Shown one piece after another: positions 1-30,919 of a stretch of DNA of 64,000 bases. Location of the stretch: positions 39,552 through 103,551 of the forward strand of contig NZ_FRFA01000001.1 of assembly GCF_900143535.1 (NCBI RefSeq), given 5' to 3'. The notes under the pieces were generated by a model, which saw nothing but the letters and a program-made list of their open reading frames with translations, ran no database searches and was not told where the DNA came from. This stretch comes from Tateyamaria sp. Alg231-49. Lineage in GTDB: Bacteria > Pseudomonadota > Alphaproteobacteria > Rhodobacterales > Rhodobacteraceae. A program made the translations under genes and the position numbers. How positions within the stretch are numbered: the stretch's first letter is position 1; each line of letters begins with the position of its first letter.

Positions 1-182
1 GACCACTTGTAATAGATGCCCTGAGATATCCCCTCCCGGCGACACAACTCGGCAATGCTGTCCTCCCCACGCAGACCATCAAGGACGATCCTGATCTTCT
101 CTTCGCTAGAATAATGCTTGCGCGTGGCGCGCTTGATATCTTTGACGATCTTCTCGCCGGAGCTCTTCGTTGTCTTTCTCAT
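1..182 (-). mobile_element. IS3-family transposase OrfA, N-terminal part (cut by window start)
   Basis: Reading leftward from an ATG at 182, the first 60 codons encode a basic N-terminus followed by a helix-turn-helix with the residues RKHYSSEEKIRIVLDGLRG and AELCRREGIS, typical of the DNA-binding OrfA subunit of IS3-type transposases. OrfA binds the terminal inverted repeats; the DDE catalytic domain would lie in OrfB beyond the window edge. A GGAG ribosome binding site precedes the ATG. The element end should lie shortly upstream of the start, around 200-245, but I could not see the partner inverted repeat, so the boundary is not fixed. The gene borders the defence island and is a sign of past transposition here. 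Subgroup is not assigned. Confidence 0.85.
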
Positions 183-236
183 CGTCCACTCCTCGGTGGC
201 TACGATGAGCAACAAACACTCTCTTAGCAAATGACC

Positions 237-954: not shown

Positions 955-3900
955 TTGAATATTGTACTTAAAACTGTCGAAGCATTTCCGAAAGGACGCA
1001 CCAGTCAGGAGTTATACGCGCTTCTGGATACTGACTTCAAAGCCAGTCGTCGGGAGGAAATCCTGGCCGAATTAATAGCGCTACAAAAACAAGGATCAAT
1101 TCTACTTGGCCAAGACAGAAAGTGGCGCGCAGTTAGCAGAACTATAGTCAAAGGCTTGCCTTCAGTGCCTCAAGGCATCGCAGGACAGGCAACACTTACA
1201 GCGGGCCCCCTGACTGCATCACCCGCACGCTTTGGGACAGAACCCGATGCCGATGTTTTATCGGCAGATGACCTCGAAGAATCTAACGAAATTGATGCAA
1301 CCGCACTCCTTAAGTACTATCGTGCTGCTCTTCAAAGTGATCCGCGCGGTGCTCTTACACAGGCAGATGATCGTCACGGTACAACGTATCAGCTGTTGAG
1401 CGGCGCTGGCGACCTCTTTCCTGAGGCTGATGAAACTGGTTTCATCCGCGTGAAACTCGACCATTTGCCCGACAGCTTCCGCGAAGCTTTGACGCGACGA
1501 GAGTCGCATGATCCAGCTCTGGCGGTCGGGTGGCCAATCGCAATCGGAAAAAAATCTGGGGCACCTGCGATCCGGCCGGTTGGTTTGGTGGCGGCGACCT
1601 GGAACCGAGACGAGGAGGACCTTATTGTCCAGATCGAAGCTGATGATGTCTTGGTCAACCCTGACTGGATAAAATCGGCGGCTGCGGGTTCGGCATGGTC
1701 ATCGTCCAATCTTTCGGACGTGTTCGCCGGGCAGGCGGGAGCTGGCCTCAAGCGAGATGATTTTCTAAACCGCCTTCGTGAGGCAGCAGCGAAATCTGCA
1801 AGGGGGCGCATCACCGGCCGAAGTTTTGTTGCCAGTGTCGATCCATTGGACGAAGGCATTTTTGATGCCATTGGATTGTTTTTGCCTTCGGAGAGCTCGT
1901 TTACGGCGGGAGCGGTACGCGATCTGGACGAAATCGCAAGTTGGGACCAAACTAAGATATCCCGAACGGCTCTTGGCCCAATTCTCGGGCTTGCACACAA
2001 TGGGGAAATTGAAGCGACGTCCCCCATTAATGTCGGACCTCTTAACCATGAACAAATTCGCGCTGTCGCCAATGCGACCTCTCAACCTCTTTCGGTTGTT
2101 ACAGGCCCGCCAGGTACTGGAAAAAGCCAAGCTATTGTAGCAATGGCTGCAACGACGATGCTTCAGGGTGGCTCTGTCGTAGTCGCTTCGAAAAACCACC
2201 AAGCATTGGACGCGGTAGAAGAACGGCTTTCCGCTATGGCGCCGAATGTTCCGTTTTCCGTCCGAACTTTGGACCCGTCGCGTGAGATCGACCAAAGTGT
2301 GAAGAATGTAGTCTCGGCTCTGGTGAACGACACTGGCGGAGCGGGGATCGGGGCCGATCCAATGCTTGTTTCTCAGCTATCATCGCTGGCAAATCGTCGC
2401 TTGTTTGCACTTGATTCTATTGAAGCGCGTCGCGACCTCAACGCACGATTGGCGGATCTGACCGAGACCCTTGAATTGCGAAGGGAGGAAGTAACTCCAA
2501 GAGAGCAACCCATAGAAAATGGCGAAAAAACCGGGTGGTGGAAACGGCTACTCCTTTGGTTGTTTCCTAAGCGTTTTAGCTCGACAGAAATGGAAGAATT
2601 GCCGCTCAGCAGAGTAAGGCTGGAGGACCTCAGAAACGAGGCAGACAAGATAAGGAGCGATGTAAAAGAGCAAGCTGAGCCAGAAGACCCCGTCGCTCTG
2701 ACAACAGAGATTGAAACGCTGGCACAATCGGTGCTGCGGCGCAATTTGGGTGAACGATGCTCACTGACAGAAGAACAAAGGCTTCAGCTCTCTGGCGAGC
2801 ATGATGACCTTCAGCTTCACGGCAGTTCGGCCATGTCGCGCGACATTGCAGAAACCGTCTTATACCATCGACCTTTGTGGTTGGCATCCGTTCTGGGCAC
2901 TCCCAAGCGTATCCCTTTATACGAAGGACTATTTGACCTGGTGATCTTTGACGAAGCCAGCCAATGCGACATTGCGTCTGCGTTGCCGTTGTTGGCTCGA
3001 GCTAAGCGTGCCGTCATTGTTGGGGATGATCGACAACTCGCTTTCATATCGCAAATTGGAGTTAAGCAAGATCGAAATTTGATGTCAGCCAACGGTCTGC
3101 CTGACCGTGGTACCGGTCGTTTTTCTCAAGGGCGAAAAAGCCTTTTCGACCTCGCACGAAGCACGCCAGGGGTCCCAGCAGTCATGTTGCGCGACCAATA
3201 CCGATCCGCAGAACAGATCGTCCAATATATCAACGAGATGTTCTACGGAGGTAAGTTGCGTGTTTCAGCTAATCTAGCGGCGATGAAGATCCCTAAAGAT
3301 CGCAAACCAGGATTGGCATGGACGAATGTCCCTGGCCCAACGTTACCTTCGCATGAAACCCAAAATATCAATGCTGAGGAAGTCGCTGCGATCACCGCTG
3401 AAGTCGAAGATCTATTGGTCCGCAAACGATATCAGGGTTCCATTGGTGTGATTGCTCCGTTCCGTTCCCAAGTCCAAGAACTGAACAGGGCGCTCAAAGC
3501 AAAAATACCAGCCAAGTTGTGGCAAGAAGCTGAGCTACGTGTTGGAACAGTCGACGGGTTTCAAGGACAAGAACGAGACTTGATCCTTTTTTCGCCGACG
3601 GTACATGCCAAGATCAAGTCCTCAGCAACCGCGTTTCTGCAAAGAGATTGGCGGCGCCTAAACGTAGCGATCAGCCGGGCTCGGGCCGTCGCCCATGTAT
3701 TTGGTGATTTGGACTTTGCGCGGTCAGGTCAGATCAAACAGCTCCGCAGCTTGGCTGCTCGAGCAACCGAACCTTATGTGAGCGCGGTTGGGGAGGGCGT
3801 TTTTGACAGTGAAATTGAGCGGATTGTGTTCCACAAATTGAAGGAACATGGCTTGGAACCGCACCCCCAATTCGAGATCGCAGGGCGCAGGTTAGACTTT

Positions 3901-4110
3901 GCTCTGTTCGGGGCAGGGGACATCAAGCTGGACCTCGAAATAGACGGTCGTCGTTGGCACCAGGATGCAGACGGAAACCGTAAACTTGATGATCACTGGC
4001 GTGATCACCAGATGCGCTCGCTTGGCTGGAAAGTCCAGCGCTTCTGGGTGGATGAATTAATGCAGGATATGGAGGGATGCCTTGACCTCGTCAAACGAGA
4101 ACTCGGTTAA
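955..4110 (+). CDS. SF1 (UPF1/Dna2-like) helicase with C-terminal Vsr/DUF559-like nuclease domain
   Basis: A 1051-residue motor protein, first gene of the defence operon. Residues 1-60 look like a winged-helix domain. The helicase core carries Walker A GPPGTGKSQ near residue 384, the motif II variant DEASQ near 666, GDDRQL near 691, a QYRS motif near 748, VDGFQGQERD near 866 and the motif VI block NVAISRAR near 900: an UPF1-type SF1B helicase. Between motifs Ia and II is a long insertion with coiled-coil character and a tryptophan-rich amphipathic stretch (TGWWKRLLLWLF). The last 100 residues resemble a Vsr/DUF559 PD-(D/E)XK nuclease, with RLDFAL and LEIDGRRWH supplying candidate acidic residues. 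The start is TTG with a GGGAG ribosome binding site. The next gene begins within a few bases of its stop. Likely role: translocating on and cutting foreign nucleic acid (inference). Confidence 0.9.
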   Translation: MNIVLKTVEAFPKGRTSQELYALLDTDFKASRREEILAELIALQKQGSILLGQDRKWRAVSRTIVKGLPSVPQGIAGQATLTAGPLTASPARFGTEPDADVLSADDLEESNEIDATALLKYYRAALQSDPRGALTQADDRHGTTYQLLSGAGDLFPEADETGFIRVKLDHLPDSFREALTRRESHDPALAVGWPIAIGKKSGAPAIRPVGLVAATWNRDEEDLIVQIEADDVLVNPDWIKSAAAGSAWSSSNLSDVFAGQAGAGLKRDDFLNRLREAAAKSARGRITGRSFVASVDPLDEGIFDAIGLFLPSESSFTAGAVRDLDEIASWDQTKISRTALGPILGLAHNGEIEATSPINVGPLNHEQIRAVANATSQPLSVVTGPPGTGKSQAIVAMAATTMLQGGSVVVASKNHQALDAVEERLSAMAPNVPFSVRTLDPSREIDQSVKNVVSALVNDTGGAGIGADPMLVSQLSSLANRRLFALDSIEARRDLNARLADLTETLELRREEVTPREQPIENGEKTGWWKRLLLWLFPKRFSSTEMEELPLSRVRLEDLRNEADKIRSDVKEQAEPEDPVALTTEIETLAQSVLRRNLGERCSLTEEQRLQLSGEHDDLQLHGSSAMSRDIAETVLYHRPLWLASVLGTPKRIPLYEGLFDLVIFDEASQCDIASALPLLARAKRAVIVGDDRQLAFISQIGVKQDRNLMSANGLPDRGTGRFSQGRKSLFDLARSTPGVPAVMLRDQYRSAEQIVQYINEMFYGGKLRVSANLAAMKIPKDRKPGLAWTNVPGPTLPSHETQNINAEEVAAITAEVEDLLVRKRYQGSIGVIAPFRSQVQELNRALKAKIPAKLWQEAELRVGTVDGFQGQERDLILFSPTVHAKIKSSATAFLQRDWRRLNVAISRARAVAHVFGDLDFARSGQIKQLRSLAARATEPYVSAVGEGVFDSEIERIVFHKLKEHGLEPHPQFEIAGRRLDFALFGAGDIKLDLEIDGRRWHQDADGNRKLDDHWRDHQMRSLGWKVQRFWVDELMQDMEGCLDLVKRELG

Positions 4111-4114
4111 TCAG

Positions 4115-5755
4115 ATGCCGAAACACGAAGAGTGGCGAAAGTCGCGCACGTTCACATGGATGGCTGTTACGGCGTCAGTCTTAGTCGTAGCCGTATTTGG
4201 CTATACGCTGTTCAAAGTAAATGTTCTTGAAACCGAATACGGAGAGATCCAAGGAAACAAAGTACGGATTTTGAGGCAGATCGAAAACCGGGAGGAGCAA
4301 CACGCAGAACTTCTGGCCAAAATTCAAAAACTCGAAACCGAGAAGTCGCTTCTCGAGGATGATCTAGCGGTGTCTCGTGTGCGGCAGGAAGAGCTTGCGG
4401 CCCTAAACGAAGGGGTCGCTTCTTCCGAAGCCACGCTCAAGGACCTGCAAGGGGCCATAGTCGAGGCCAATCAAAAGTTGATGGAGCAAGAATCTGTCGA
4501 AATAGCGCTGGAAGAATCTCGTGGCGAGCAAAGTGAACTGGCCCAACAGAAAGTTCGCCTAAATGCGGAGATCGCGAGCCTTCAGCGTGAATTAAACACT
4601 GCGAATGATGAAGCGCGTGAGGCGAAAAATAAACGTGACCAATTCCAGGACGAAGTTTCAGATCTGCTGGAAAAGAAGCAGCAACGAGACGAAGCTGAGA
4701 GCGAACTAAACGCGGCACAAAATGCCCTGACGGCCATTCAAGACAAACTAAGAAATGCAGATAAGAACCTTGCGGAGAGGGAAGCCTCAGCATCAGATGC
4801 CGAACGCCGCTTCTCTCAGGCTGAAAAAGATCTGACATCGCTGAGTGCTCGCATCGCTACTAGGCAAACGGAGCTAGAAAGCAAAAGCAATGATGCGAAC
4901 GCCGAAGCTACCCGCTTGGCCGGGCTGGAGCAAGATCGCGAAAATCTGTCTGAACAGGTTGATAGACTGAAAGCCGAAGAAACGCGGTTGAAACTGTTCG
5001 TCGAGAGGAACGCAAAAGCTGAAGCCGCGCTGGAAAGCACCTCACAAGCTTTGCAGCTTGCTCGCGACGAGAAAACCGAGATCGAAGCTGAGCTAGTCGC
5101 AAAACGCAACGAAATCCAAGACGAACGGATCAAAATTTCCGAAGTTAAGGTTGAAGTCGCCGCGCTGCGTCAAAACATTTCTTTGCTTGAAGCTGATCGG
5201 CAAGAAGCCACAAACAAGCGCGACGCCGTCGATTCAGAAATTCTAGCGAAATCCCAGACGCGTGAGACTTTGGCTGAACAGTTGAACACGGTATCGGCAG
5301 AACTTGCATCTGAAACGACCTTGCTTGCCCAGAAAAGTGGTGAGCGGATAGCCGAAGAAGCAAGGCTGGCGGACTTGCAAACCAAAGCCGTGGGTTTGAG
5401 TGAGGTTGAGGCTAAGCTTGCGGAGCTGCAACCCCAACTGGACGCACGTGAAAACGCCGCAAAAGCTGCTGAAATCTCGCTTGCCAAACTATCCGGTAAG
5501 ATCGAGGCGGAACAGATCAGTCTGAGTTCGCTGCGCCAGGAGATAAACGACACTTCAGGTGATCTGGACAGTTTGAACAATCAGAAATCGAAACTGGACG
5601 CGCGCATAAACGAGCTCGCCGCAGAAAAAGCTGATTTTGAAGCAGAAGTTGCAGCGTTGGAGCAACTGATAACTAACCGTGAATCATCGCTGAAGCCCCA
5701 ACCTACCGATCAACCAACCGATGATACCGGTGCGCAACCTGAAGGAGACAACTGA
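4115..5755 (+). CDS. Membrane-anchored long coiled-coil protein, 546 aa
   Basis: Second gene of the operon. After a short charged N-terminus there is one hydrophobic segment (about residues 15-36, WMAVTASVLVVAVFGYTLF). An almost uninterrupted heptad-rich coiled coil, dominated by Glu, Ala, Lys, Leu and Gln, then runs to about residue 520. The tail is short and proline/threonine rich. There is no catalytic motif; the architecture is that of a membrane-tethered rod or scaffold. I chose the ATG at 4115. An upstream in-frame TTG at 4082 would overlap the helicase gene by 29 bases and is the alternative. The gene ends in a TGATG overlap with the next ATPase gene, implying translational coupling. 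It probably pairs with the coiled coil of the next protein to hold the system at the membrane (inference). Low-complexity coiled coils make homology assignment unreliable. Confidence 0.85.
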   Translation: MPKHEEWRKSRTFTWMAVTASVLVVAVFGYTLFKVNVLETEYGEIQGNKVRILRQIENREEQHAELLAKIQKLETEKSLLEDDLAVSRVRQEELAALNEGVASSEATLKDLQGAIVEANQKLMEQESVEIALEESRGEQSELAQQKVRLNAEIASLQRELNTANDEAREAKNKRDQFQDEVSDLLEKKQQRDEAESELNAAQNALTAIQDKLRNADKNLAEREASASDAERRFSQAEKDLTSLSARIATRQTELESKSNDANAEATRLAGLEQDRENLSEQVDRLKAEETRLKLFVERNAKAEAALESTSQALQLARDEKTEIEAELVAKRNEIQDERIKISEVKVEVAALRQNISLLEADRQEATNKRDAVDSEILAKSQTRETLAEQLNTVSAELASETTLLAQKSGERIAEEARLADLQTKAVGLSEVEAKLAELQPQLDARENAAKAAEISLAKLSGKIEAEQISLSSLRQEINDTSGDLDSLNNQKSKLDARINELAAEKADFEAEVAALEQLITNRESSLKPQPTDQPTDDTGAQPEGDN

Positions 5756-7761
5756 TGGGATCTCTCGTTTTGACAGTCCTAATTGCAGGCTTTGCTCTGT
5801 TGGCGCTGGTAATCATCATGGTGGTCGTAGCTGCGCGGGCGGATCATGCCAACACACTCAAACCCCCGCTGGCCACACTTGGTGAAATTGACGCGCAAAT
5901 CCGCGGCAAGACCTCTACATTGGATGACTTGGAAGCTGAGCTGGGCAAACGGCGAGACGCTATTTCGAGCATTGCTGACATTCAGGCTGAAGTTGATGCC
6001 TTGGTTCGGCAGAAGGATGAGTTGCTTGCTGAATGGCAGCAAGCAGAAGATCGGCGCCAGGAAATCTTAGCCCTGCGCCAGGAAACTGATGAAGCCCATA
6101 CGGCCCTTGCCACGGCAACCCGCGATCTGAGCGAGAAGGCCTTGGAACTTGAGCAGGTCGAAGCCCGCCTACAAAAGGCGGAGCAGCTTGTTGCCCAGAT
6201 TTCCGAGCTAGAGGAAAGCAAAGCTAAACTTGATGAAGCAGTGGTGGAACTTCGCGGGGAGCTGTCGGATTTGCAGACGTTGCAAGCTCGAGAAAAGGAC
6301 CTTCGCGAAAATATCGAACGGTATTTGCGGGACTCTTCGCGCCTTGAAGGTGAGATCGACAGCTTTCAGTCCCGTCGCGATGAAGCCAAGGAGGGCGCAC
6401 GTTTAGCCCAGGAGCGATTGGAAGAAATCAAGGCTGTTTACACCGGTGAAGCAGCCAAACTAGCATCTCAACAAACCGAGCTCACACGGATGGACGCACA
6501 GCGAGCCGGGTTGTTGGCGCAAATCGAATCCATGAAAGAAAAAGCTGGCTTGGCTGGCAGTGACGGAGGAACGGGCGCCGATCCGTTAGCCGAACTCCAA
6601 TCGCTCCCCCCGGTGCTGTCCGGGATGCAGAAATGGGCTGAACACGCAGCGCGCGAACTGGAAACCGACGCCCTGCATCGCGTTACGGTTCACATGCGAG
6701 CTTTGGGATTGGACTATCATCCGCGCGTCATTCGCGCTTTTCACACCGCGATGAAAGTGAACGAAACTACCCAGATGGCTGTGCTTGCTGGTATCTCTGG
6801 AACCGGGAAAAGCCAGTTGCCGCGCCGGTATGCTCAGGCAATGGGTATTGGCTTTCTTCAGGTCCCGGTTCAGCCGCGATGGGATAGCCCGCAGGACCTT
6901 ATGGGTTTTTATAACTACATTGAAGGCAAGTTCAGGCCCACTGATCTGGCACGGGGACTTTACCATCTGGATAAGTGGAACGGCCCAAGTGAGAGCCGCG
7001 AACTTCAGGACCGAATGATGTTAGTTCTTCTGGATGAAATGAACCTTGCACGGGTGGAATACTATTTCTCAGACTTTTTGAGCCGGCTCGAAAGTCGCCC
7101 AGGCATCGATCAGGCAGATCGTCAGGAATTGCGCAAGGATGCCGAACTGGAGTTGGACATTCCGATGCCAAAGGGTGAAAGTTCACCGCGCATCTTCCCT
7201 GGATACAACGTTCTCTTTGCTGGCACGATGAACGAAGATGAAAGCACTCAGTCGCTGTCGGACAAGGTCGTGGACCGGGCAAATGTGATGCGGTTTGCAG
7301 CGCCTAAAACTATCATGGCCGGAACTGGGGAGGGCACCCCTATTGAAACCAAAGCACTGTCGCGCAGCCAATGGCGAACGTGGGTCAAAGGTGTCGATGG
7401 GCTTGGCGCCGAACGAAACGCGGTCGAAAGCCATGTTGAAAAGATGGTCGGCCACATGACGGCTTTGGGCCGTCCGATTGGCCACCGATTGGGTCGCGCC
7501 ATGATCGCCTACGCCGCCAACTATCCAGAAGACAATGGTCGCCGAGATGTACAAACTGCACTGGCAGACCAGGTCGAGATGCGGCTCCTCCCAAAATTGC
7601 GTGGCGTCGAGATGGAAACGGCTAGCAGCTCTCTTGATCAGTTGGCCGAGTATGTTCAAGCGGACCTAAACGATACGATCCTTGCCGACGCGATCCGTGA
7701 TTCCGCACGGCTGGCAGATGAAGGTACTGGGCAGTTTGTATGGCGAGGAGTAACGAGGTAA
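5755..7761 (+). CDS. Membrane-anchored coiled-coil McrB-like AAA+ ATPase
   Basis: Third operon gene, 668 residues. A transmembrane helix at about 3-28 is followed by a coiled coil from about 35 to 260, and then by an AAA+ module of the McrB/MoxR type: Walker A GISGTGKSQ near 346, Walker B LLDEMNLARVEYYF near 425, and a sensor region GTMNEDEST near 490 followed by VVDRANVMRF. The DEMNLA-VE-YFSDFL pattern is characteristic of McrB-like (COG1401) ATPases. The classical McrB GTPase signature MNTADR is replaced by MNEDES, so nucleotide preference is uncertain. An N-terminal membrane helix plus coiled coil instead of a DNA-binding domain is unlike E. coli McrB and closer to membrane or coiled-coil McrB relatives. 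Start ATG overlaps the previous stop (TGATG), and its stop overlaps the next start (TAATG). Confidence 0.9.
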   Translation: MGSLVLTVLIAGFALLALVIIMVVVAARADHANTLKPPLATLGEIDAQIRGKTSTLDDLEAELGKRRDAISSIADIQAEVDALVRQKDELLAEWQQAEDRRQEILALRQETDEAHTALATATRDLSEKALELEQVEARLQKAEQLVAQISELEESKAKLDEAVVELRGELSDLQTLQAREKDLRENIERYLRDSSRLEGEIDSFQSRRDEAKEGARLAQERLEEIKAVYTGEAAKLASQQTELTRMDAQRAGLLAQIESMKEKAGLAGSDGGTGADPLAELQSLPPVLSGMQKWAEHAARELETDALHRVTVHMRALGLDYHPRVIRAFHTAMKVNETTQMAVLAGISGTGKSQLPRRYAQAMGIGFLQVPVQPRWDSPQDLMGFYNYIEGKFRPTDLARGLYHLDKWNGPSESRELQDRMMLVLLDEMNLARVEYYFSDFLSRLESRPGIDQADRQELRKDAELELDIPMPKGESSPRIFPGYNVLFAGTMNEDESTQSLSDKVVDRANVMRFAAPKTIMAGTGEGTPIETKALSRSQWRTWVKGVDGLGAERNAVESHVEKMVGHMTALGRPIGHRLGRAMIAYAANYPEDNGRRDVQTALADQVEMRLLPKLRGVEMETASSSLDQLAEYVQADLNDTILADAIRDSARLADEGTGQFVWRGVTR

Positions 7762-9260
7762 TGTATCTCGTTCGCCGCCCCTGGTCGCTTCGTTCGGAAG
7801 ACGCGGAGGAGACGGTTTTCGGTCCCGAGGATTGTTTTCTTGGTGACGCTGAATCCGGGATTGATCGCAACAGTCGCCATACGAAGCTTCTGTCCCGCGA
7901 AAAACGCGAATTGAGACTGTTTCCCTATCCGAAAACAGGGAGTGCAGATGCTCCGATCCGAGTTTCGGGCCTTCCCGCGCGCCCAAAGATAGGCCTTGAA
8001 CCGAAGACGCCCGAAGAAAAAACTGCTGTCGAAGCTTCGGGCCGTATGCATCGGGTTCTTGCAAGGATAGCAGAGCTTGAAGGGGCATTGGACGATCCTG
8101 AAAACCTTTGGCAACGCCTACAGGAGGCTTGGGATCGAGCTGAAGACGAGAGCGATCCACGAATGTCGGAGATCGTCCGGCAATCAAACCAAATCAAACC
8201 TCATTTGATTGAGTTGGAAAAGCGTATCCGTAGGGTGCTTCGCCGGAACCGTGAACTGACACCGCTTAATCGTGTCCAGGAAATGGACCGCGCCTCCATG
8301 CTCTGGATGGTACGTCAACCTGGGAAAAACACGGCGGAGAGGGCGGGGGCTGACCAACGTGTGCTTGCCATCGTGCGGCATGAGAATTTTGACACGCTGG
8401 AGAACAGGGTCTTGCACGCTTATCTCAAGTTGGCTTCACATTTTGCCCGCCAATGGCTTCGAGAGCACAAACGGGCGAAAAGCAGTGCGCGTTTCAAGAT
8501 GGTTGAGTCCTACTTCCGGCTCTGTCGCCGGATTGCGCGCGAGCTGGCCAATTTAGGCGTTGCAATTGCCGAGCCAGGTGTCCCTGCGAACTATGTACTC
8601 ATGGAGGACAGAAGTTACCGAGCGGTCGATGAAGCGTGGGATAGATTACTTCGACAGGACAAAGCGGAGGATGAGCTTTGGGCATGGCAGGCAGAAAGCT
8701 GGACAGATTTCTGCGTGCTCGCGGTCACGCTTGCCCTGCATGGATTGAATGAATCCATACTTATCGCTCAGGCACCTTTGGTTTGGGTGGATGAGGCCAT
8801 ACAAGGTAGGCGTTTCCTCCATGACCGGCCACTTGCGGTGTTCTGGTTGCGCGAAAGCGGAATAATCGTGGAGGTTCAGGCGCGGCCGGAAGAGATTTCG
8901 GCGAACCAGTTTGCCGCAAGGGCGAACTTGTGGCTTCGCGTTACCGACCTGAAAACCGATGCCGTCGAAAGACGGATCCCTGTTTGGACCCCTCATTCGT
9001 TTAACAGGATGTCTGCGCAGTCAGAAGCGCAAAGCGCCTCCACATTGGTGCACGCTCTCCGCAATCGGCCGGGACAGGAAGTATTAAGGGAAGGGCTGAT
9101 ATTGATGCCCGCACACGGAGTTACAGAAACCTACGAGGCGACGTCAGGCGGCGGGCGCGTCCAAGCAATTGCAATTGATGCTGTTGGCGAAACACTCAAA
9201 GAAGGAAAGACGGCCCTGGCCAACTTTGTGCGGACTTGTTTTCAAGAGAGTGAAGCATGA
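7761..9260 (+). CDS. DUF2357 / McrC-like partner protein, 499 aa
   Basis: Fourth operon gene. The position directly after an McrB-like ATPase, the size, and the central helical region with ENRVLHAYLKLASHFARQW fit the DUF2357 family, which often accompanies McrB-like ATPases as the McrC counterpart. In such pairs the McrC-like protein binds the ATPase ring and stimulates it. I do not see a convincing PD-(D/E)XK nuclease triad at the C-terminus; the best candidate strand reads GIIVEVQARP, with Gln where Lys is expected. The nuclease function of the system may instead reside in the helicase. I chose the ATG at 7761 (TAATG overlap with the previous stop). An in-frame ATG at 7740, adding seven residues, is possible. 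The last codons overlap the next gene as ATGA. The family call is moderate; the gene call is strong. Confidence 0.75.
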   Translation: MYLVRRPWSLRSEDAEETVFGPEDCFLGDAESGIDRNSRHTKLLSREKRELRLFPYPKTGSADAPIRVSGLPARPKIGLEPKTPEEKTAVEASGRMHRVLARIAELEGALDDPENLWQRLQEAWDRAEDESDPRMSEIVRQSNQIKPHLIELEKRIRRVLRRNRELTPLNRVQEMDRASMLWMVRQPGKNTAERAGADQRVLAIVRHENFDTLENRVLHAYLKLASHFARQWLREHKRAKSSARFKMVESYFRLCRRIARELANLGVAIAEPGVPANYVLMEDRSYRAVDEAWDRLLRQDKAEDELWAWQAESWTDFCVLAVTLALHGLNESILIAQAPLVWVDEAIQGRRFLHDRPLAVFWLRESGIIVEVQARPEEISANQFAARANLWLRVTDLKTDAVERRIPVWTPHSFNRMSAQSEAQSASTLVHALRNRPGQEVLREGLILMPAHGVTETYEATSGGGRVQAIAIDAVGETLKEGKTALANFVRTCFQESEA

Positions 9261-11614
9261 AGCGGCTTGTAGGCTATGATCTGAATGGCTGGAGCGATTT
9301 TTCTGCCCGCAACTGGCTTGAGGTTCCCGGTCAGGAAACTCTTGAAAACCAAGATCAGGTTATTCAAGGGGGCATTGGCGGTGTCGTGGTGACCGTTAAA
9401 GAAAGTCCGCAAGGCACCGAGTTCATCGGGGGGATGCAAGCGCAACGCGCACCGCATGGAAGAGGCACCGGCTGGGGCGCTGTCGGCGCAAAAGAAAATC
9501 GGTCAAGTTTGCTACAATTACTTGAAAAGCCAAACGACTATACGCGTGAAATTTCAAGCGCGTTGTTCGCAATGGCCGACGCTCGCAAGGCAACGGCTGT
9601 TTTTTCAATTCCTGACATACCTGCGCTAGTCGAAGATCACCAAGAGGCATTTCTCAAATGCTTGGAGACTCTGCGAGCGGGCAGGCGGCTACTCGTCTGG
9701 CGACCCGTTTTGGCCGTGCTGGCGGCATTTGAAGAGTGTTCCAATGTTCAGTGGGACGATGTCAAAGACATCGGAGTTATCATCCACACTTCAAAGGGCT
9801 TTTCTTCGCAGCGATTACAACTTCGCAAAGAAAAAGTCTTTGCACCAGAAAGGCGATATTCGGGGCGTCATCATGACTGCGATTTGGGTCTTGAGGCACT
9901 TTGGGGTCAAGCAAAAGCAGCGCTGAAGGCGCGATGCGCTAACCCCGAAAAAGCCGACCATGTCGATGCGTCTCAACTGCCCTCGAAACTCGCTTTGGGG
10001 CACGAGTGGGATGCAGAACCTCTTAGGCGGTGGAATGGCTCTTGGGAAATTGTTACGCCACCGGAAGAGTTCGATATTGCACGCGGCAAAGTTCCAGAGG
10101 CTCTCGCTGACCATCTTTCTGATTGCAGTATAGTTCTATTCCAATCGCCAACTGTTGGCGTGGTTCGTGACTGTGTTGTTCAGCGCCTTACGACCCAGCT
10201 CGGGTGTAACCTCCATTGTTTGGAACCGCAGGCAATAGCCCGCGGTGCGCTGGAAGCGGCGCGTCGCCTTTCCGAAAATCTGCCGATTTACTATGATTTC
10301 TTGCCTCAGATCTCGACCATTGTTCAGGATGCAGATGGAGCGAAAAGCTACGATCTCATCCCAACCGACGCTCTGTTGCCCGCCGGGCAATCATATCGAA
10401 GTGACCAACCTGCTCGGTTGGGACTGCTGGCTGGCATGGAAGAAATCAAGATTCATCTCAAAAAAGAAACCGATGCAACACCCCGCCGCGCTGTAGTCAC
10501 ACTTACGACACCACCCGCAAAAAACACTCCTATTGAATTGCATTTACAACAAACACCAGCGGCGGGCCGTGCTCGAATGACCTTGGTATCCGAAGCGTTC
10601 TCGGGTCCAATAATTGTGGATTGGGAGACAGCAAGAGAGTTAGATCAAAATTGGGAAGAAGTCATTGAGAGCCTAGAACCTGAAAGGCCAACTGTACCCA
10701 ATCGTTTAGTTCTACCTTGCGGAACGGACACATGGTTCGAGCAAGACAACAGGCCAGGTCTTGAAGACCTCCTAGTACAAGAGCTCTCAAGTCGAGATCC
10801 AAAATGGAATACACTCGCCTCCAAATTATCAAGCCGATCAAACGGAAAATATTCGATCTCGAGCGACGGGGAGTATCCCAGCCAGCTTCCTCAACCCTCC
10901 AGATATTTGCTGGAAGATGCTATCAGCCTCGCTGAGAAAGATGTGCAAGAGCGTCTTGCGGGAAGGGGAACCAACAATAACCATTCGTTGCGGTTTCTGA
11001 CCTGGCTATTCCACATGTGCCCTGACTGGGTTGTGCCGCATCTAATTGATGGTGCAGAGGCCAGAACCGGATATCATGCATTCGTGCAATCTGGTGGATC
11101 AAGGGGGCTCATGCTGCAAGCAATTGGTAGAACAGCACAAGATCCAGAGCATCAGAAAAGGGCTTTCAAACATCTTTTGCAATTGCCTTTGGGCAGGTGG
11201 AAAAAGGACCAGATCGCCTGCGCCGCATTCTTGTTGTCTCGAAATGACAGCGCACCATTGTTGCTCGAAAGGAGCGAAGTCGACTTTCTTGCAAAGGTTG
11301 CCGAAACAAAAGTGCTTGAGGCCGTGGGAAAGGATTTTACGTCTGCTTACATTTACGGCCCATACCTTTTGGTAGGTCTGCTAAGGTGGCGCCTTCGAGA
11401 TCCATGGGCCTTGGTTGTGGGTCGAGATCCAGTCGCCGATGATTTACTTTCGGCTACCCGAAAGTTGATGGCGCATCTGAAAAGGAGAATGTCCCGGGAC
11501 GGCAATTTGAAACGCTACCATGATATCCTAGACCAGGTTTGCGAAGAGCTGGAAGGGAAGGGCACTAACCCGGATATCTTGATCGACATAGAAGGTCTGG
11601 CCTCAAGTCGGTGA
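9257..11614 (+). CDS. Probable Hsp70/actin-like protein of the defence operon, 785 aa
   Basis: Last operon gene, ATGA-overlapped with the DUF2357 gene. The N-terminus VGYDLNGWSDF is placed like the phosphate-1 loop of Hsp70/actin ATPases. Around residues 293-350 the stretches IVLFQSPTVG and AIARGALEAARRL resemble the adenosine motif and the following helix of Hsp70 proteins. Next come IPTDALLPAGQSY and a beta-rich segment (about 375-460) positioned like an Hsp70 substrate-binding domain. The canonical DIGGGT phosphate-2 motif is not evident, so ATPase activity may be lost or altered. The C-terminal 250 residues are helical and unrecognised. A chaperone-like subunit would be unusual in a McrBC-type system; it might sense a phage protein or control assembly (inference). 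The gene call is secure; the fold call is tentative. Confidence 0.6.
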   Translation: MKRLVGYDLNGWSDFSARNWLEVPGQETLENQDQVIQGGIGGVVVTVKESPQGTEFIGGMQAQRAPHGRGTGWGAVGAKENRSSLLQLLEKPNDYTREISSALFAMADARKATAVFSIPDIPALVEDHQEAFLKCLETLRAGRRLLVWRPVLAVLAAFEECSNVQWDDVKDIGVIIHTSKGFSSQRLQLRKEKVFAPERRYSGRHHDCDLGLEALWGQAKAALKARCANPEKADHVDASQLPSKLALGHEWDAEPLRRWNGSWEIVTPPEEFDIARGKVPEALADHLSDCSIVLFQSPTVGVVRDCVVQRLTTQLGCNLHCLEPQAIARGALEAARRLSENLPIYYDFLPQISTIVQDADGAKSYDLIPTDALLPAGQSYRSDQPARLGLLAGMEEIKIHLKKETDATPRRAVVTLTTPPAKNTPIELHLQQTPAAGRARMTLVSEAFSGPIIVDWETARELDQNWEEVIESLEPERPTVPNRLVLPCGTDTWFEQDNRPGLEDLLVQELSSRDPKWNTLASKLSSRSNGKYSISSDGEYPSQLPQPSRYLLEDAISLAEKDVQERLAGRGTNNNHSLRFLTWLFHMCPDWVVPHLIDGAEARTGYHAFVQSGGSRGLMLQAIGRTAQDPEHQKRAFKHLLQLPLGRWKKDQIACAAFLLSRNDSAPLLLERSEVDFLAKVAETKVLEAVGKDFTSAYIYGPYLLVGLLRWRLRDPWALVVGRDPVADDLLSATRKLMAHLKRRMSRDGNLKRYHDILDQVCEELEGKGTNPDILIDIEGLASSR

Positions 11615-11638: not shown

Positions 11639-11982
11639 GATCTGAACCGGCATCCAGAAGATCTGACCTGACTGCGAATACGGAGCAGACTGACGGAAAA
11701 GGTTAGAAAGGACTATTCGGTTTTAGTCTGACCCCAGACGCCGTTGTCCTTGCAAAGTGAGTTAACCGCAAAGTCGATGGAAAGAATGGATGTTTATTGC
11801 TGTACCATTTCTGTACCATCGCAAAGAATGTGGACAAAGCTCAATCTATACGGAAATCCATGTCTGCTGAGGCTTCAACGACCCTTAAGAAGTCTTAAAA
11901 ACTTATTTAAATTCAGTTGCTTGCTTGTTGTCGCCCCAATAAAACATGATACAATGTCAAAAGTTTCTATTACTGCCATATT

Positions 11983-12029
11983 GGATTGAAAATCCTCGTG
12001 TCGGTGGTTCGATTCCGCCCCCGGCACCA
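11983..12029 (+). tRNA. 3' fragment of a tRNA (tRNA-Phe-like), probable attachment-site remnant
   Basis: The segment matches the 3' half of a bacterial tRNA: an anticodon loop TTGAAAA (anticodon GAA, phenylalanine), a variable region, a T-arm with stem GGTGG/CCGCC around loop TTCGATT, and a terminal CCA at 12027-12029. The upstream 60 bases contain no D-arm or 5' acceptor strand, so no full tRNA exists here. The outer anticodon-stem pairs do not match and the acceptor strand is one base short. Truncated tRNA 3' ends are the usual footprint of integrative elements that use a tRNA gene as attachment site. The position just after the defence operon fits that reading (inference). Confidence 0.65.
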
Positions 12030-12359: not shown

Positions 12360-14123
12360 ATGAAACGAAGACTTGCTGCCATACTTGCAGCAGATGTCGT
12401 GGGTTATTCGCGCCTCGTCCGCTCTAATGAAGAGCAGACGTTAGAGCGATTGCGAGAACTACGGAAAAACGTCATTGAGCCCGCCTTTGCAAAACATGAA
12501 GGTCGAGTGGTCAAATGGATGGGAGACGGAGTACTGACGGAGTTTGCAAGTGCCGTCGACGCGGTTTCATGCGCCTACGATATTCAAAAGTCTATCCATT
12601 CACGCAACGGAGACTCTGCAGTTGATGAGGGGATTATTTTTCGCGTCGGCATCAATATCGGCGACGTCGTGGTGGAAGGCGACGACATTCATGGCGATGG
12701 GGTTAACGTAGCCTCAAGGTTGGAAACGCTGTCCGAGCCTGGTGGAATTTGCATTTCGGCCTTAGTCTATGAACAGGTCAAGCACCGCCTCCATGTGCCT
12801 TTTCAAGACGCGGGTGACCAGCAGGTTAAAAATATTGCAGAGCCAATCCGCGTCTGGAAATGGGTGGATAAGGCAAACGATGAAGCAACCACTCAAGATT
12901 CCGTTGTAAAGTCAGGGCTAATTTTGCCTCCTAGCCTGCCAGACACTCCGTCTATCGCGGTTTTGCCGTTTGACAATATGTCAGGCGATACCGAGCAAGA
13001 GTACTTCGCAGACGGCATGACAGAGGACCTGATCACCGACCTATCAAAATTGTCTGGCTTGTTAGTCATCGGTCGCAACTCTTCATTTGTTTACAAAGGC
13101 AAGGCCGTAGATCTGCGACACGTCGGTAAGGAGTTGGGTGTGCATTATGTCCTTGAGGGAAGTATCCGCAAGGCAGGCAATCGGGTTCGCATGAACGCGC
13201 AGCTAATTGAAACAGCGAATGGAACCCACGTATGGGCCAATCGCAGGGACGGAACGCTAGAAGATATTTTTGACCTGCAAGACGAGATTACAAGAGAAAT
13301 TGTCGATGCGCTGTCTGTTCAGTTACGGGAAGGTGAAGAAAAGCGTCTTGGCAGTCAGTACACAGAGAATATTGAAGCGCGTGACTGGTTTCTTAAAGGG
13401 CGACTGCGCTATCGCGAACCGGGTCCGCAAGCCAACGCCGAAGCCCAGCTACTGTTCACCAAAGCTTTAGAAGCTGACCCAAACTTCGCCTATGCATTGG
13501 CTGTTAGAAGCTACCTTAAATTCCATGCTTGGTTCTTCAAGTGGAACAGCCACCACAATGCGTTTGACGAAGCATTGGCTGAGGCCGAACATGCTGCCAA
13601 GATGGATCCTAACCTAGCGGCAGCTCACGCGTATCTAGGTTGGATGCATATGTGGGGCGAGGGATCCGAAAGAGCTCTTTCTGAGCATGAAACAGCTTTA
13701 TCACTGGACCCCAATTCCTCAGATGGACATTTGTGGCAGGCTTCTTCGCTCATCTACGCGGGAACGCCTGAGTTGGCAATTACTCCGATGGATCGAGCAA
13801 TGCGGCTAGAACCGCACACTCCACCCATTTACCTTCTTAATTATGGTCACCTGATGTTGCAGCTTGACCGGTATGAAGAAGCTATCGAATATTTGCAGGC
13901 GGCAATAAGAAACGCTCCTCAGTTTCCTATGAACTACATATTTTTGTCGGCGGTAAAAACTGCGCAAGGCAAATTGCAGGAGGCAGAGGAGGCTGGCTTG
14001 AGACTTCTCGGATTGATCCCAGTAGCTACGGTATCCACACTGAGTTCCCAATTGCCCTACGTAAAGGAAGAGCACAGACAAAAAATTGTGGCGGGCCTGA
14101 AAGCCGCAGGGTTGCCTGATTAG
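12360..14123 (+). CDS. Class III adenylate/guanylate cyclase with TolB-like and TPR domains
   Basis: A 587-residue soluble protein. Residues 1-170 form a class III nucleotide cyclase domain with the metal-binding aspartates in AADVVGYSRL and MGDGVL, and the transition-state pair Asn/Arg in GVNVASRLE. A TolB-like/FlgO-like linker domain follows (about 195-325, IAVLPFDNMSGD then a YVLEGSIRK motif), and then several tetratricopeptide repeats (about 335-575). This architecture is common in Rhodobacterales and Rhizobiales as stand-alone cyclases probably controlled by protein contacts through the TPRs. The catalytic residues look intact, so cyclic nucleotide synthesis is plausible. Start ATG at 12360 with a strong GGGAGG ribosome binding site. 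It is a single gene just outside the presumed island boundary. Confidence 0.9.
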   Translation: MKRRLAAILAADVVGYSRLVRSNEEQTLERLRELRKNVIEPAFAKHEGRVVKWMGDGVLTEFASAVDAVSCAYDIQKSIHSRNGDSAVDEGIIFRVGINIGDVVVEGDDIHGDGVNVASRLETLSEPGGICISALVYEQVKHRLHVPFQDAGDQQVKNIAEPIRVWKWVDKANDEATTQDSVVKSGLILPPSLPDTPSIAVLPFDNMSGDTEQEYFADGMTEDLITDLSKLSGLLVIGRNSSFVYKGKAVDLRHVGKELGVHYVLEGSIRKAGNRVRMNAQLIETANGTHVWANRRDGTLEDIFDLQDEITREIVDALSVQLREGEEKRLGSQYTENIEARDWFLKGRLRYREPGPQANAEAQLLFTKALEADPNFAYALAVRSYLKFHAWFFKWNSHHNAFDEALAEAEHAAKMDPNLAAAHAYLGWMHMWGEGSERALSEHETALSLDPNSSDGHLWQASSLIYAGTPELAITPMDRAMRLEPHTPPIYLLNYGHLMLQLDRYEEAIEYLQAAIRNAPQFPMNYIFLSAVKTAQGKLQEAEEAGLRLLGLIPVATVSTLSSQLPYVKEEHRQKIVAGLKAAGLPD

Positions 14124-14461
14124 TGAAAAGCAAAGAAGCCCGCTTTGGGCTCAGAGCAGCCATTCGCTGCAGAGCGGCTCAAGGTCCGCTTTGTCGTCAA
14201 TCGCCAGCTTTTGGTATTATCGGTCCCGAGCCACAACTAAGTCTGCGGTCCATCCAAAGAAAAGCAAAACAAATTTGGCAACAAACAACGCTAATTGTCC
14301 GGTAGAACAACCTGCGCCTGTCCGCACCGATTGATACGTTCCCTAAACTCCACTTCAGTTTCGCTTTCTATCCGTTCTAATGACTGTCCAGAATTCATAC
14401 CGTAAGCGGAGACCGCTTCTTTGGTTTGCGCACATCCGTCTCCTCGCACTGTCGTCTTCAA
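14124..14461. other. Intergenic region, no feature seen
   Basis: About 340 bases between the cyclase gene and the convergent AraC regulator gene. A 60-codon open frame from 14123 lacks a ribosome binding site and recognisable content. I see no strong terminator or repeat. Confidence 0.4.
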
Positions 14462-15457
14462 TTAAGCATGGGTTTCTTTCAGGCTATGCAATTTTCGGAC
14501 CTTCCCCGGAGGTACTTCAAAAACCCTTTTGAAAGCCTTGTTGAACGAAGGTTCGGATAGGTACCCAACCCTGGCCGCGATCTGCGAGATCGGCTGGTCT
14601 GTTTCAATCAACTGTTCTCGAGCCAAATGCATGCGCCATGTTGCAAGATATTGAATGGCCGGAACGCCGACGAGTTCCGTAAACCTTGCTGAGAATGCTG
14701 ACCTCGACATTCCTGCAAGCTGTGCAAGCGACTCGACCGACCAGTTTGCGGCTGGGGCGCGGTGAATGGCTACTATGGTGCGCCCAATCTGCGGATCTCG
14801 CGCCGCTTTCAGCCAGCCGCGATTTGCGTCGGGCGCGCTGTTGAGCCATCGGCGAATGGCCTCGATAACCACCACATCAGCCAAGCGTGTAATGACCGTT
14901 TCGCCACCCGGTCGCAGTTCACGTGCCTCTTTTGCAATGAACTGCAGGGTTGCCTGTAGCCAACTCCCGGCGTCCTCCTCCCATGGATCGATTTTGATTA
15001 TGTCAGGCAGCAAGTCCATCAACAAACCGCTGGCTGCATGATCTATTCTGACCAAGCCATACATGATGCCGGTCTCTGCGCCACCACCACCATATTCGAG
15101 CGTTTCCAAGATCTCTGTCACCTTGCGTATCGGCAACTCTTCCAGAGTTAAAAGCGGCGTATCTTCTGAACTGAAGAAACCGATAGGCGCGCCTTTTGTC
15201 ATCAAAACCAGATCGCCTTTTTCGACTTCAAAAGGGTTGTCCTCCCCAACCCGCATAAAGCAACGCCCGTGTGTAATGACTGCAAAGCTCAGGATGTCGG
15301 GAAACCCAGGGATCGCGACGCCCCAGGGCGCCGACAAGCGTGACTGGCAATAGAATGTGCCTGTGAGCTTCAGAAGATGAAGAATTTCTCCCAGCGGGTC
15401 GCCAATGGGTTGGGCCAGTGCATCGGGGTCGGGGACGTGTGGTTCAATCTGGTTCAT
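14462..15457 (-). CDS. AraC-family transcriptional regulator with cupin-type N-terminal domain
   Basis: A regulator with an N-terminal AraC-type cupin sensor domain (about residues 20-190) and a C-terminal double helix-turn-helix (about 230-325): SVESLAQLAGMSRSAFSARF, and then PISQIAARVGYLSEPSFNKAF, the conserved second AraC HTH with its closing FEVPPGKVRK. It is divergent from the NmrA-family gene at 15595, with about 140 bases between them, so it likely controls that gene and the downstream membrane protein gene. Start choice is uncertain. I used the ATG at 15457 (331 aa); a GTG at 15493 would add 12 residues. Neither has a strong ribosome binding site. Ligand unknown. Confidence 0.85.
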   Translation of the reverse strand: MNQIEPHVPDPDALAQPIGDPLGEILHLLKLTGTFYCQSRLSAPWGVAIPGFPDILSFAVITHGRCFMRVGEDNPFEVEKGDLVLMTKGAPIGFFSSEDTPLLTLEELPIRKVTEILETLEYGGGGAETGIMYGLVRIDHAASGLLMDLLPDIIKIDPWEEDAGSWLQATLQFIAKEARELRPGGETVITRLADVVVIEAIRRWLNSAPDANRGWLKAARDPQIGRTIVAIHRAPAANWSVESLAQLAGMSRSAFSARFTELVGVPAIQYLATWRMHLAREQLIETDQPISQIAARVGYLSEPSFNKAFKRVFEVPPGKVRKLHSLKETHA

Positions 15458-15594
15458 CTCGTGAGTTTGGTCGAAATTGCCCTGTCCGTCCACATATGTT
15501 GGACGAATGGATAATAAGTAAGGATTATCGAGAATAGATCATCTCGCTCGATTGCCTATCTGTGGGTCATCAACGGAAAACATGGAGATGATCA

Positions 15595-16422
15595 ATGACA
15601 CAGCAAACAATTCTCGTACTTGGCGCAACAGGCAAAACCGGGTCGCGGATCACGGCGCGCCTCGAGGACAAAGGGCACAAAGTCAGGCGTGGATCGCGTG
15701 GCAGTGAAACGCCCTTTGATTGGGGAAAACCGGAGACTTGGCCTGCGGTCCTAGACGGCGTTTCGTCCGCCTACATTTCTTATTTTCCCGACATCGCATT
15801 TCCAGGCGCGGTCGAGCAGGTCGAGGCCTTCACGGCATTGGCCAAAGAAACTGGATTGCAACGCCTTGTGCTTTTGACTGGGCGTGGTGAGTTCCACGCC
15901 GAAAGAGCCGAAGAAGTTATCCGAAACTCTGGCATACCGTTCACGATCGTACGTGCCGCGTGGTTTGCACAAAACTTCTCTGAGGGTGCATTGCTTGATC
16001 CGGTTATGGCCGGTGTATTGCCAATGCCTGCTGGCGAAGTGCGCGAACCGATCGTCGACGTAGACGACATTGCGGACGTTGCCGTTGTTGCATTGACCGA
16101 AGAGGGCCACGCCGGTGCGCTTTATGAAGTCACAGGGCCACGGCTCATGACATTTGCGGACATGGCCCAAGAGCTTTCAAGCGCCATGGGCCGGACAGTG
16201 CAATACCTGCCGATCTCCTTTGAAGATTTTCATGCGGAAATTGCGAGTGCGAATGGGCTGATGATTGCCGACGTAATTACAGACATTGCCCGCGAAACTC
16301 TTGACGGACGCAATGCCACCCTTGCTGACGGTGTTCAACGCGCCCTGGGACGTGCGCCGCGCGACTTTGCTGAGTTTGCCCATAACGCCCAATCGTCGGG
16401 TGCGTGGACCAAAGCCGCCTGA
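15595..16422 (+). CDS. NmrA-like / SDR-a5 NAD(P)-binding protein
   Basis: A 275-residue atypical short-chain dehydrogenase fold protein. The N-terminus ILVLGATGKTGSRI is the glycine-rich dinucleotide-binding loop of the NmrA/SDR-a5 group. The middle carries LVLLTGRGEFHAE and the conserved TIVRAAWFAQNFSEG, typical of NmrA-type quinone or NAD(P)-sensing proteins. The Tyr-x3-Lys catalytic pair of classical SDRs is not obvious, so it may act as a redox sensor or an NAD(P)H:quinone oxidoreductase. ATG start with GGAG upstream. It is divergent from the AraC regulator and followed 28 bases later by a DUF4345-like membrane protein gene; the pair probably forms an operon. Confidence 0.85.
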   Translation: MTQQTILVLGATGKTGSRITARLEDKGHKVRRGSRGSETPFDWGKPETWPAVLDGVSSAYISYFPDIAFPGAVEQVEAFTALAKETGLQRLVLLTGRGEFHAERAEEVIRNSGIPFTIVRAAWFAQNFSEGALLDPVMAGVLPMPAGEVREPIVDVDDIADVAVVALTEEGHAGALYEVTGPRLMTFADMAQELSSAMGRTVQYLPISFEDFHAEIASANGLMIADVITDIARETLDGRNATLADGVQRALGRAPRDFAEFAHNAQSSGAWTKAA

Positions 16423-30600: not shown

Positions 30601-30919
30601 ACAGATGGGCTATCGCACAGACCTTGCCAGCAATGGCGTAGAAGCACTGCAAAGTGTGGCACGGCAAAACTACGATGTGGTGCTGATGGATGTCCAAATG
30701 CCGGAAATGGATGGGCTTGAGGCGTCACGCCGCATCCATGCTGACCACCCCGGCGACACGCGTCCGAAAATCATCGCAATGACGGCCAACGCTATGCAGG
30801 GGGACCGCGAGATGTGCATCGCGGCCGGTATGGACGACTACATCGCCAAACCCATCCGCGTGGACCTCCTGATTGACGCGCTGTTGCGTGTCCCGCCCAA
30901 CATCAAGGAAACATCATGA
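24608..30919 (+). CDS. Giant hybrid sensor histidine kinase with nine tandem GAF domains
   Basis: A 2103-residue cytoplasmic kinase with no transmembrane segment. Nine GAF domains occupy residues about 1-1570. From the second on, each is preceded by a near-identical linker of the form RQTAS-D/E-ILRVIS (linkers near 172, 352, 532, 712, 886, 1060, 1233 and 1403), a period of about 175-180 residues. Then follow HisKA (SHEIRTPMN, phospho-acceptor His near 1595), the HATPase domain ([21 protein letters not shown]), and two receivers (phospho-acceptors in [12 protein letters not shown] near 1886 and [12 protein letters not shown] near 2026). It overlaps the Hpt gene by ATGA. The start is uncertain: the frame is open back to 24506 and reads protein-like ([11 protein letters not shown]) but offers no ATG, GTG or TTG. 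GAF ligands are unknown. Confidence 0.92.

Follow-up and report, generated by a model that had tools for sequence, protein, structure and literature searches.

The window, a stretch of 64,000 nucleotides from Tateyamaria sp. Alg231-49, carries at positions 955-11614 five consecutive open reading frames on the forward strand, here called cnuH, cnuA, cnuB, cnuC and cnuD (Table 1). The ORF listing confirmed the five adjacent genes in the order proposed by an initial annotation of this DNA. That annotation had also described junctions of four bases or fewer, which holds with later start codons only; with the listed starts the successive overlaps are 29, 1, 22 and 4 nt. At the cnuH/cnuA junction, a 29-nt overlap results if cnuA starts at TTG 4082 and a 4-nt gap if it starts at ATG 4115. 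The TTG start is favoured because GGAGG lies 6 nt ahead of it and because the homologues in loci L025, L028 and L029 have no later methionine. The cnuB/cnuC overlap is reduced from 22 nt (ATG 7740) to 1 nt if ATG 7761 is used.

Table 1. Features of the operon and its immediate flanks (window coordinates).
Feature	Position	Strand	Description
Transposase start	1..230	-	IS3-type by eye; continues past the left window edge (13403-14782 in locus L110)
cnuH	955..4110	+	UPF1-like SF1 helicase with C-terminal Vsr/MTES_1575-type PD-(D/E)xK nuclease
cnuA	4082..5755	+	N-terminal hydrophobic helix (residues ~23-44), then long coiled coil
cnuB	5755..7761	+	Hydrophobic helix (residues 1-27), coiled coil (~40-280), McrB-like AAA+ domain
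cnuC	7740..9260	+	McrC-like: DUF2357 and C-terminal PD-(D/E)xK-like fold; alternative start ATG 7761
cnuD	9257..11614	+	Hsp70-like nucleotide-/substrate-binding domains (~1-473), helical C-terminal region
tRNA-Phe 3' fragment	11982..12029	+	48 nt; aligns with the 3' portion of the intact tRNA-Phe of contig C25, one base missing

The domain assignments made from the letters alone, namely an SF1 helicase with a Vsr/DUF559-type nuclease, a coiled-coil McrB-like AAA+ protein, a DUF2357/McrC-like protein and a likely Hsp70-like protein for genes 1, 3, 4 and 5, were all borne out. CnuH matched the Pfam families AAA_12 (6.1e-37), AAA_11 and MTES_1575/DUF559 (2.8e-13), with the matches beginning at residue 360, and has a Walker A motif at residues 384-391 and a DEAS motif at 666-669; its profile matches in the PDB were SEN1, UPF1 and SMUBP-2. 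The MTES_1575 domain, which we take to be Vsr-like, spans residues ~950-1050 and carries Asp981, Glu995, Asp997, His1002, Asp1013 and Arg1016. These six residues are identical in all 24 aligned rows that reach the region (two of the 26 rows are cut), and the nuclease of CnuH is apparently intact. A strict regular expression for the Vsr motif matched 46 of 65 CnuH sequences, but it is too strict for the far clade and the alignment is preferred. CnuH also gave matches to Mokosh, Hhe, ProA and PLuB proteins, which cover the helicase core only, in some cases with the nuclease, and reflect shared parts rather than membership of those systems. Its NCBIfam matches fall far under the cut-offs (for Hhe, 108.7 against 2000 bits), and a PADLOC search of CnuH gave no Mokosh, Hhe, ProA or PLuB match.

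CnuB contains a Walker A motif (residues 346-353), a DEMN motif (427-430) and an NxD motif formed by Asn493-Glu494-Asp495 and followed by Glu496 (MNEDE). The NxD motif and the following glutamate are kept in all seven CnuB rows from a whole-protein search. NxD with the glutamate behind it was found in 81 of 81 loci (the best 80 of 202 relatives and one viral contig), a count that is partly circular, GTMNEDE having been one of two patterns used in the scan. Residues ~40-280 resemble the coiled-coil models of SMC, Rad50, dynactin and tropomyosin, as profile matches only, and a profile search of CnuB against the PDB likewise gave coiled coils. For CnuA, profile searches returned coiled-coil-type matches only, all under the curated cut-offs; its homologues are 20-27% identical and occupy the same place in five of six loci of the family.

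The Pfam DUF2357 match of CnuC lies just under the cut-off (22.0 against 23.3 bits), and a fold search with its predicted structure gave McrBC chains. Profile matches of CnuC to T-cell receptors in the PDB were rejected as chance. The catalytic ExK motif is missing, residues 376-380 reading IVEVQ, and as judged from the predicted structure CnuC is an McrC fold with a dead nuclease. Sequence searches with CnuD gave nothing except a weak match to 4gni (E 0.67). A fold search with its AlphaFold2 model ruled out a fold of no known kind: the model is that of an Hsp70 fold, with fold matches spanning residues 1-458, and residues ~500-785 are modelled as helical.

The full set matches a system already described, the Type III-B CoCoNuT, a predicted restriction system derived from McrBC (Bell et al. 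2024, PMC11090510). As set out in the main text of that paper, Type III-B comprises a Vsr-fused CnuH, separate CnuA and CnuD proteins, a CnuC with a dead nuclease and an McrB-like GTPase with NxD in place of NxxD, usually then Glu or Asp. Its CnuH is described there as having an N-terminal wHTH, an OB-fold and a helical insertion after Walker A, and its CnuD as having HEAT-like helical repeats; Types III-B and III-C are without TerY-P, and III-B is found primarily in Alphaproteobacteria. The operon agrees with this account in its CnuH-Vsr fusion, CnuA coil, CnuB with NxD and a coil, dead CnuC, separate CnuD, alphaproteobacterial host and absence of TerY-P. No TerY-P genes were found beside the operon, where an ORF of 121 aa with no family match and the transposase lie to the left, and the tRNA-Phe scrap followed by a gene weakly matching a cyclase to the right. 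The operon is almost certainly a Type III-B CoCoNuT, and a well-preserved one. The initial annotation was right to place it in the McrBC-related conflict world. Its suggestion of an unrecognised five-gene system is ruled out by the match, which covers composition, the motif and the main host group; a match of the full set to a described system is an outcome that the annotation itself had named as refuting.

A search with CnuB of 295 genomes of the family found matches in 13, seven of them full length including that of the window. Four of the six other full-length loci have all five genes in the same order; one of the remainder is without CnuA by BLAST and one is without CnuH, its contig ending there. 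In a wider sample of one genome per species (84,980 species), 202 relatives were found, and the best 80 of these were kept together with one viral contig. The H-A-B-C-D order is complete in 64 of these 81 loci, where CnuA is counted as the ORF ending next to cnuB and a cut-short CnuH as present (L048, L067; the CnuH of L080 is an 82-residue stub, and cnuH is split in L033-L036). Eight of the 17 incomplete loci are truncated by the left end of their contig (L032, L050, L057, L062, L064, L074, L075 and L099). CnuH lies downstream of the other genes in three Verrucomicrobiota loci (L098, L103 and L104). Six loci have room for the genes and no profile match to CnuH, CnuC or CnuD (L078, L085, L093, L094, L096 and L100); such misses in far loci may reflect sensitivity, because the profiles were built from the near clade.

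The nearest CnuB rows come from Roseobacteraceae, Paracoccaceae and one MAG labelled Gammaproteobacteria. In the CnuB tree the window groups with Shimia abyssi and the MAG labelled Gammaproteobacteria (98/94), and in a wider group with Ruegeria and Jhaorihella (100/99); with midpoint rooting the Type III-A and III-C rows are placed outside, subject to a long-branch warning. Relatives resembling III-B reach Planctomycetota, Thermodesulfobacteriota, Verrucomicrobiota and Lentisphaerota.

Several of these loci have features of their own. In the Rhizobium loci L033-L036 (3897-6267) cnuH is in two pieces, and it is whole in R. tubonense (L042). Between the pieces in L033 sits a gene pair, presumably IS21-like (IstA/IstB-like). 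The Albidovulum locus L056 (3671-16433) combines a near-clade CnuH with divergent CnuB, CnuC and CnuD and a CnuA of 1067 aa, as if modules had been exchanged inside the operon. The Jannaschia operon (L044) is directly preceded by a gene (1509-4796) for a second SF1-type helicase, one that carries an RNase_H_2 domain. An alphaproteobacterial-type copy on a 5.7-kb contig of a MAG labelled Saccharibacteria (L064) is possibly a binning error.

The initial annotation had claimed membrane anchors for genes 2 and 3, and both proteins do have hydrophobic N-termini that are widely kept. Helices were scored as the mean Kyte-Doolittle hydropathy over 19 residues at a threshold of 1.4 (the usual cut is 1.6), using only rows with the start present. 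All 76 scorable CnuB rows reached 1.4 and 73 reached 1.6, leaving three in between; left out were three cut rows and two in which the ORF is split, the N-terminal pieces of these two scoring 2.76 and 3.19. For CnuA, 70 of 73 scorable rows reached 1.4 and 68 reached 1.6, with four loci without a called CnuA and four cut rows left out. The mean of the best 19-residue score in CnuB was 2.84 in the 43 near loci and 2.33 in the 33 far loci, and the helices of both proteins span Alphaproteobacteria to Planctomycetota and Verrucomicrobiota. As controls, two Type III-A CnuB proteins, which are near-identical to each other with identical GTPase domains, scored -0.24 and have no helix. Five other McrB-like proteins, those readable among ten control loci, scored 1.29 or less and four further McrB-like proteins from genomes of the family 0.24 to 0.89; one Type III-C CnuB (L106) scored 2.39.

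From these scores, the N-terminal helices of CnuA and CnuB are very probably real membrane anchors, the evidence being hydropathy and conservation. The stretches could instead be buried helices of a soluble assembly. That hydropathy is the sole measure, and that three of the 76 CnuB rows lie between 1.4 and 1.6, would be compatible with such burial, but the high mean hydropathy in both clades, the almost uncharged N-terminus of CnuB and the excess of lysine and arginine behind its helix speak against it, and we consider burial very unlikely. If they are anchors, the helices provide a handle on the location of the machine and on the arrangement of its two coiled coils.

The charges that flank the helices may also bear on topology. 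In 75 of 76 CnuB rows more lysine and arginine lie behind the helix than ahead of it, a lopsided comparison as the pre-helix tail is very short. Of the 42 near-clade CnuA rows, 41 carry a higher net charge ahead of the helix than behind it, with none reversed, and lysine and arginine alone give 31 against 3; these counts are not independent events, because the near and far clades were split by hand and the rows are related. Applying the positive-inside rule to these flanking charges would place CnuB in the cytosol and near-clade CnuA on the opposite side. For the 28 far-clade CnuA rows, an N-terminus facing in is favoured by net charge (19 for, 5 against) and disfavoured by lysine and arginine (8 for, 13 against). 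The system might then work as a switch across the membrane, the CnuA coil of ~500 residues lying on the periplasmic side and the CnuB ring on the cytosolic side; by sensing phage as it crosses the envelope, CnuA might set off the GTPase together with the Hsp70-like part and the helicase-nuclease. We regard this arrangement as rather unlikely. The lysine and arginine counts of far-clade CnuA lean the other way, the CnuB tail is short, the rows are related, and the ~500-residue coil would have to fold back within the periplasm.

The operon had also been described as lying between an IS3-type transposase and a tRNA 3' remnant, as a transferred island would. Both flanks are present, and the occurrence of the system is patchy: CnuC was found in two of 20 genomes of the genus and CnuD in one of 190 genomes of the class, the window's own genome included in each count. 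ARAGORN found no whole tRNA in the 64-kb window. Other observations speak against an island: the intact tRNA-Phe lies on another contig, at 427 kb of the 460-kb C25, whereas the scrap sits 51.5 kb into contig C28, so that the two are roughly 80 kb or more apart. On these grounds the intact gene was rejected as the partner end of the scrap. By eye, none of the ORFs adjoining the operon was recognised as an integrase, and no empty site was found by way of the right flank (12360-16422), which was detected in none of 19 other genomes of the genus, bar short scraps in one. The flanks thus stand as described, while their reading as the ends of a transferred island is weakly supported.

The 64-kb window is no defence island. 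Two of nine neighbouring proteins in the window had PADLOC matches, both weak and generic. In 30 hand-picked loci no flank family was common to more than three of 167 flanking ORFs, so the five-gene unit appears to stand alone. Some flanks carry type I restriction genes and one a BrxL gene (raw counts from the 92 of the 167 proteins that were scanned). Two further features of the window are a 2103-aa histidine kinase with nine GAF and two receiver stretches (24608-30919) and a 289-bp stretch (14146-14434) that is 98% identical to G000:C31:38698-38986 and recurs in part in ten further short matches in the same genome.

Relatives of CnuB were found on three rhizobial plasmids, and a search of 50,697 phage records gave two partial matches. 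On the viral contig L105 the operon is complete, and a Phage_integrase gene (3253-4353) lies ~1 kb upstream of cnuH. We infer that the role of the operon is probably defence against phage from its descent from McrBC, its patchy spread, the copy on the viral contig with an integrase ~1 kb away, the rhizobial plasmids and the defence genes in some flanks. Several of these same points weigh against membrane-associated quality control of RNA or protein under stress, in which CnuD and CnuH would act on stalled translation complexes. Such a role would suit the Hsp70 fold of CnuD, the UPF1-like helicase of CnuH and the link of CoCoNuTs to translation components drawn in passages of PMC11090510. It sits poorly with the patchy occurrence, with the whole copy ~1 kb from a phage-type integrase gene, and with the plasmid-borne CnuB relatives and defence genes in some flanks; we think it quite unlikely.

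The best overall explanation, to which we give a probability of roughly 0.7, is a Type III-B CoCoNuT in which an anchored GTPase ring works with a helicase-nuclease. By analogy with McrBC, CnuB would form a GTP-driven hexameric ring stimulated by CnuC. The N-terminal helices would hold the ring and the coiled coils at the inner membrane, the entry point of phage nucleic acid. CnuD and the N-terminal part of CnuH might recognise the target, upon which GTP turnover could release or power CnuH to unwind and cut the nucleic acid of the invader. The substrate of CnuH might be RNA, as proposed for CoCoNuTs, or DNA, with host RNA possibly attacked as a last resort; the chance that RNA rather than DNA is the target is about even. 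Under a DNA-directed, Type IV-like mode of restriction, the membrane ring and CnuH would target phage DNA, either modified or on its way in, as McrBC does. A membrane position would fit entering DNA, and the sole intact nuclease recognised is the Vsr/MTES_1575 PD-(D/E)xK domain, but the nearest PDB relatives of the helicase are SEN1, UPF1 and SMUBP-2, and the Hsp70-like subunit is argued, in the relevant passages of PMC11090510, to favour RNA. We hold DNA-directed restriction to be somewhat short of an even bet. A relative of McrBC that is bound to the membrane and includes an Hsp70-like part would amount to a defence machine stationed where phage nucleic acid enters.

The literature found on the system consists of the eLife paper and its preprint, a preprint of 2025 about YprA helicases, in which a Type IV is added, and a review where the name coconut appears once; in what was searched, Type III-B is described by computation only and no experiment on it was found. 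In the main text of PMC11090510, supplement and figures aside, the membrane helices of CnuA and CnuB go unmentioned: no word there begins with membrane, anchor, periplasm or inner membrane, and in its passages 'transmembrane' occurs for CoCoPALM, for EssC-like proteins and in one reference. CoCoPALM, as those passages present it, also has an McrB-like GTPase whose N-terminal part combines a membrane segment and a coiled coil, but genes of the signal-peptidase/pilus-assembly kind are linked to it, whereas the operon here has no sixth gene. The membrane and coil domain fused to the CoCoPALM GTPase is homologous to FtsB; CnuB has its hydrophobic helix and coiled coil, with no FtsB family among its listed matches. 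CnuB matches the PADLOC model PDC-M26A (E 2.9e-39), but the other four proteins have no PDC-M26 match at E 0.01, and membership of PDC-M26 was rejected as CnuB alone matches.

Among the other CoCoNuTs compared, two loci assigned to Type III-A from their gene order (L107 and L108) share the SF1 helicase, CnuB and a McrC/DUF2357 gene. They differ in having phosphatase and kinase genes (and in L108 an annotated VWA gene), a gene of its own following the helicase where the operon has the Vsr fusion, a single DUF2357 protein of 1348 aa, and a CnuB without the N-terminal hydrophobic helix. The Synechocystis pSYSX locus (L106), assigned to Type III-C in the same way, resembles the operon in that a DUF2357 gene follows a CnuB bearing an N-terminal hydrophobic helix, and differs in a phospholipase D-type gene and in that no cnuA was recognised by eye. 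The helices thus appear to separate Type III-B, together with the one III-C locus examined, from the III-A loci examined.
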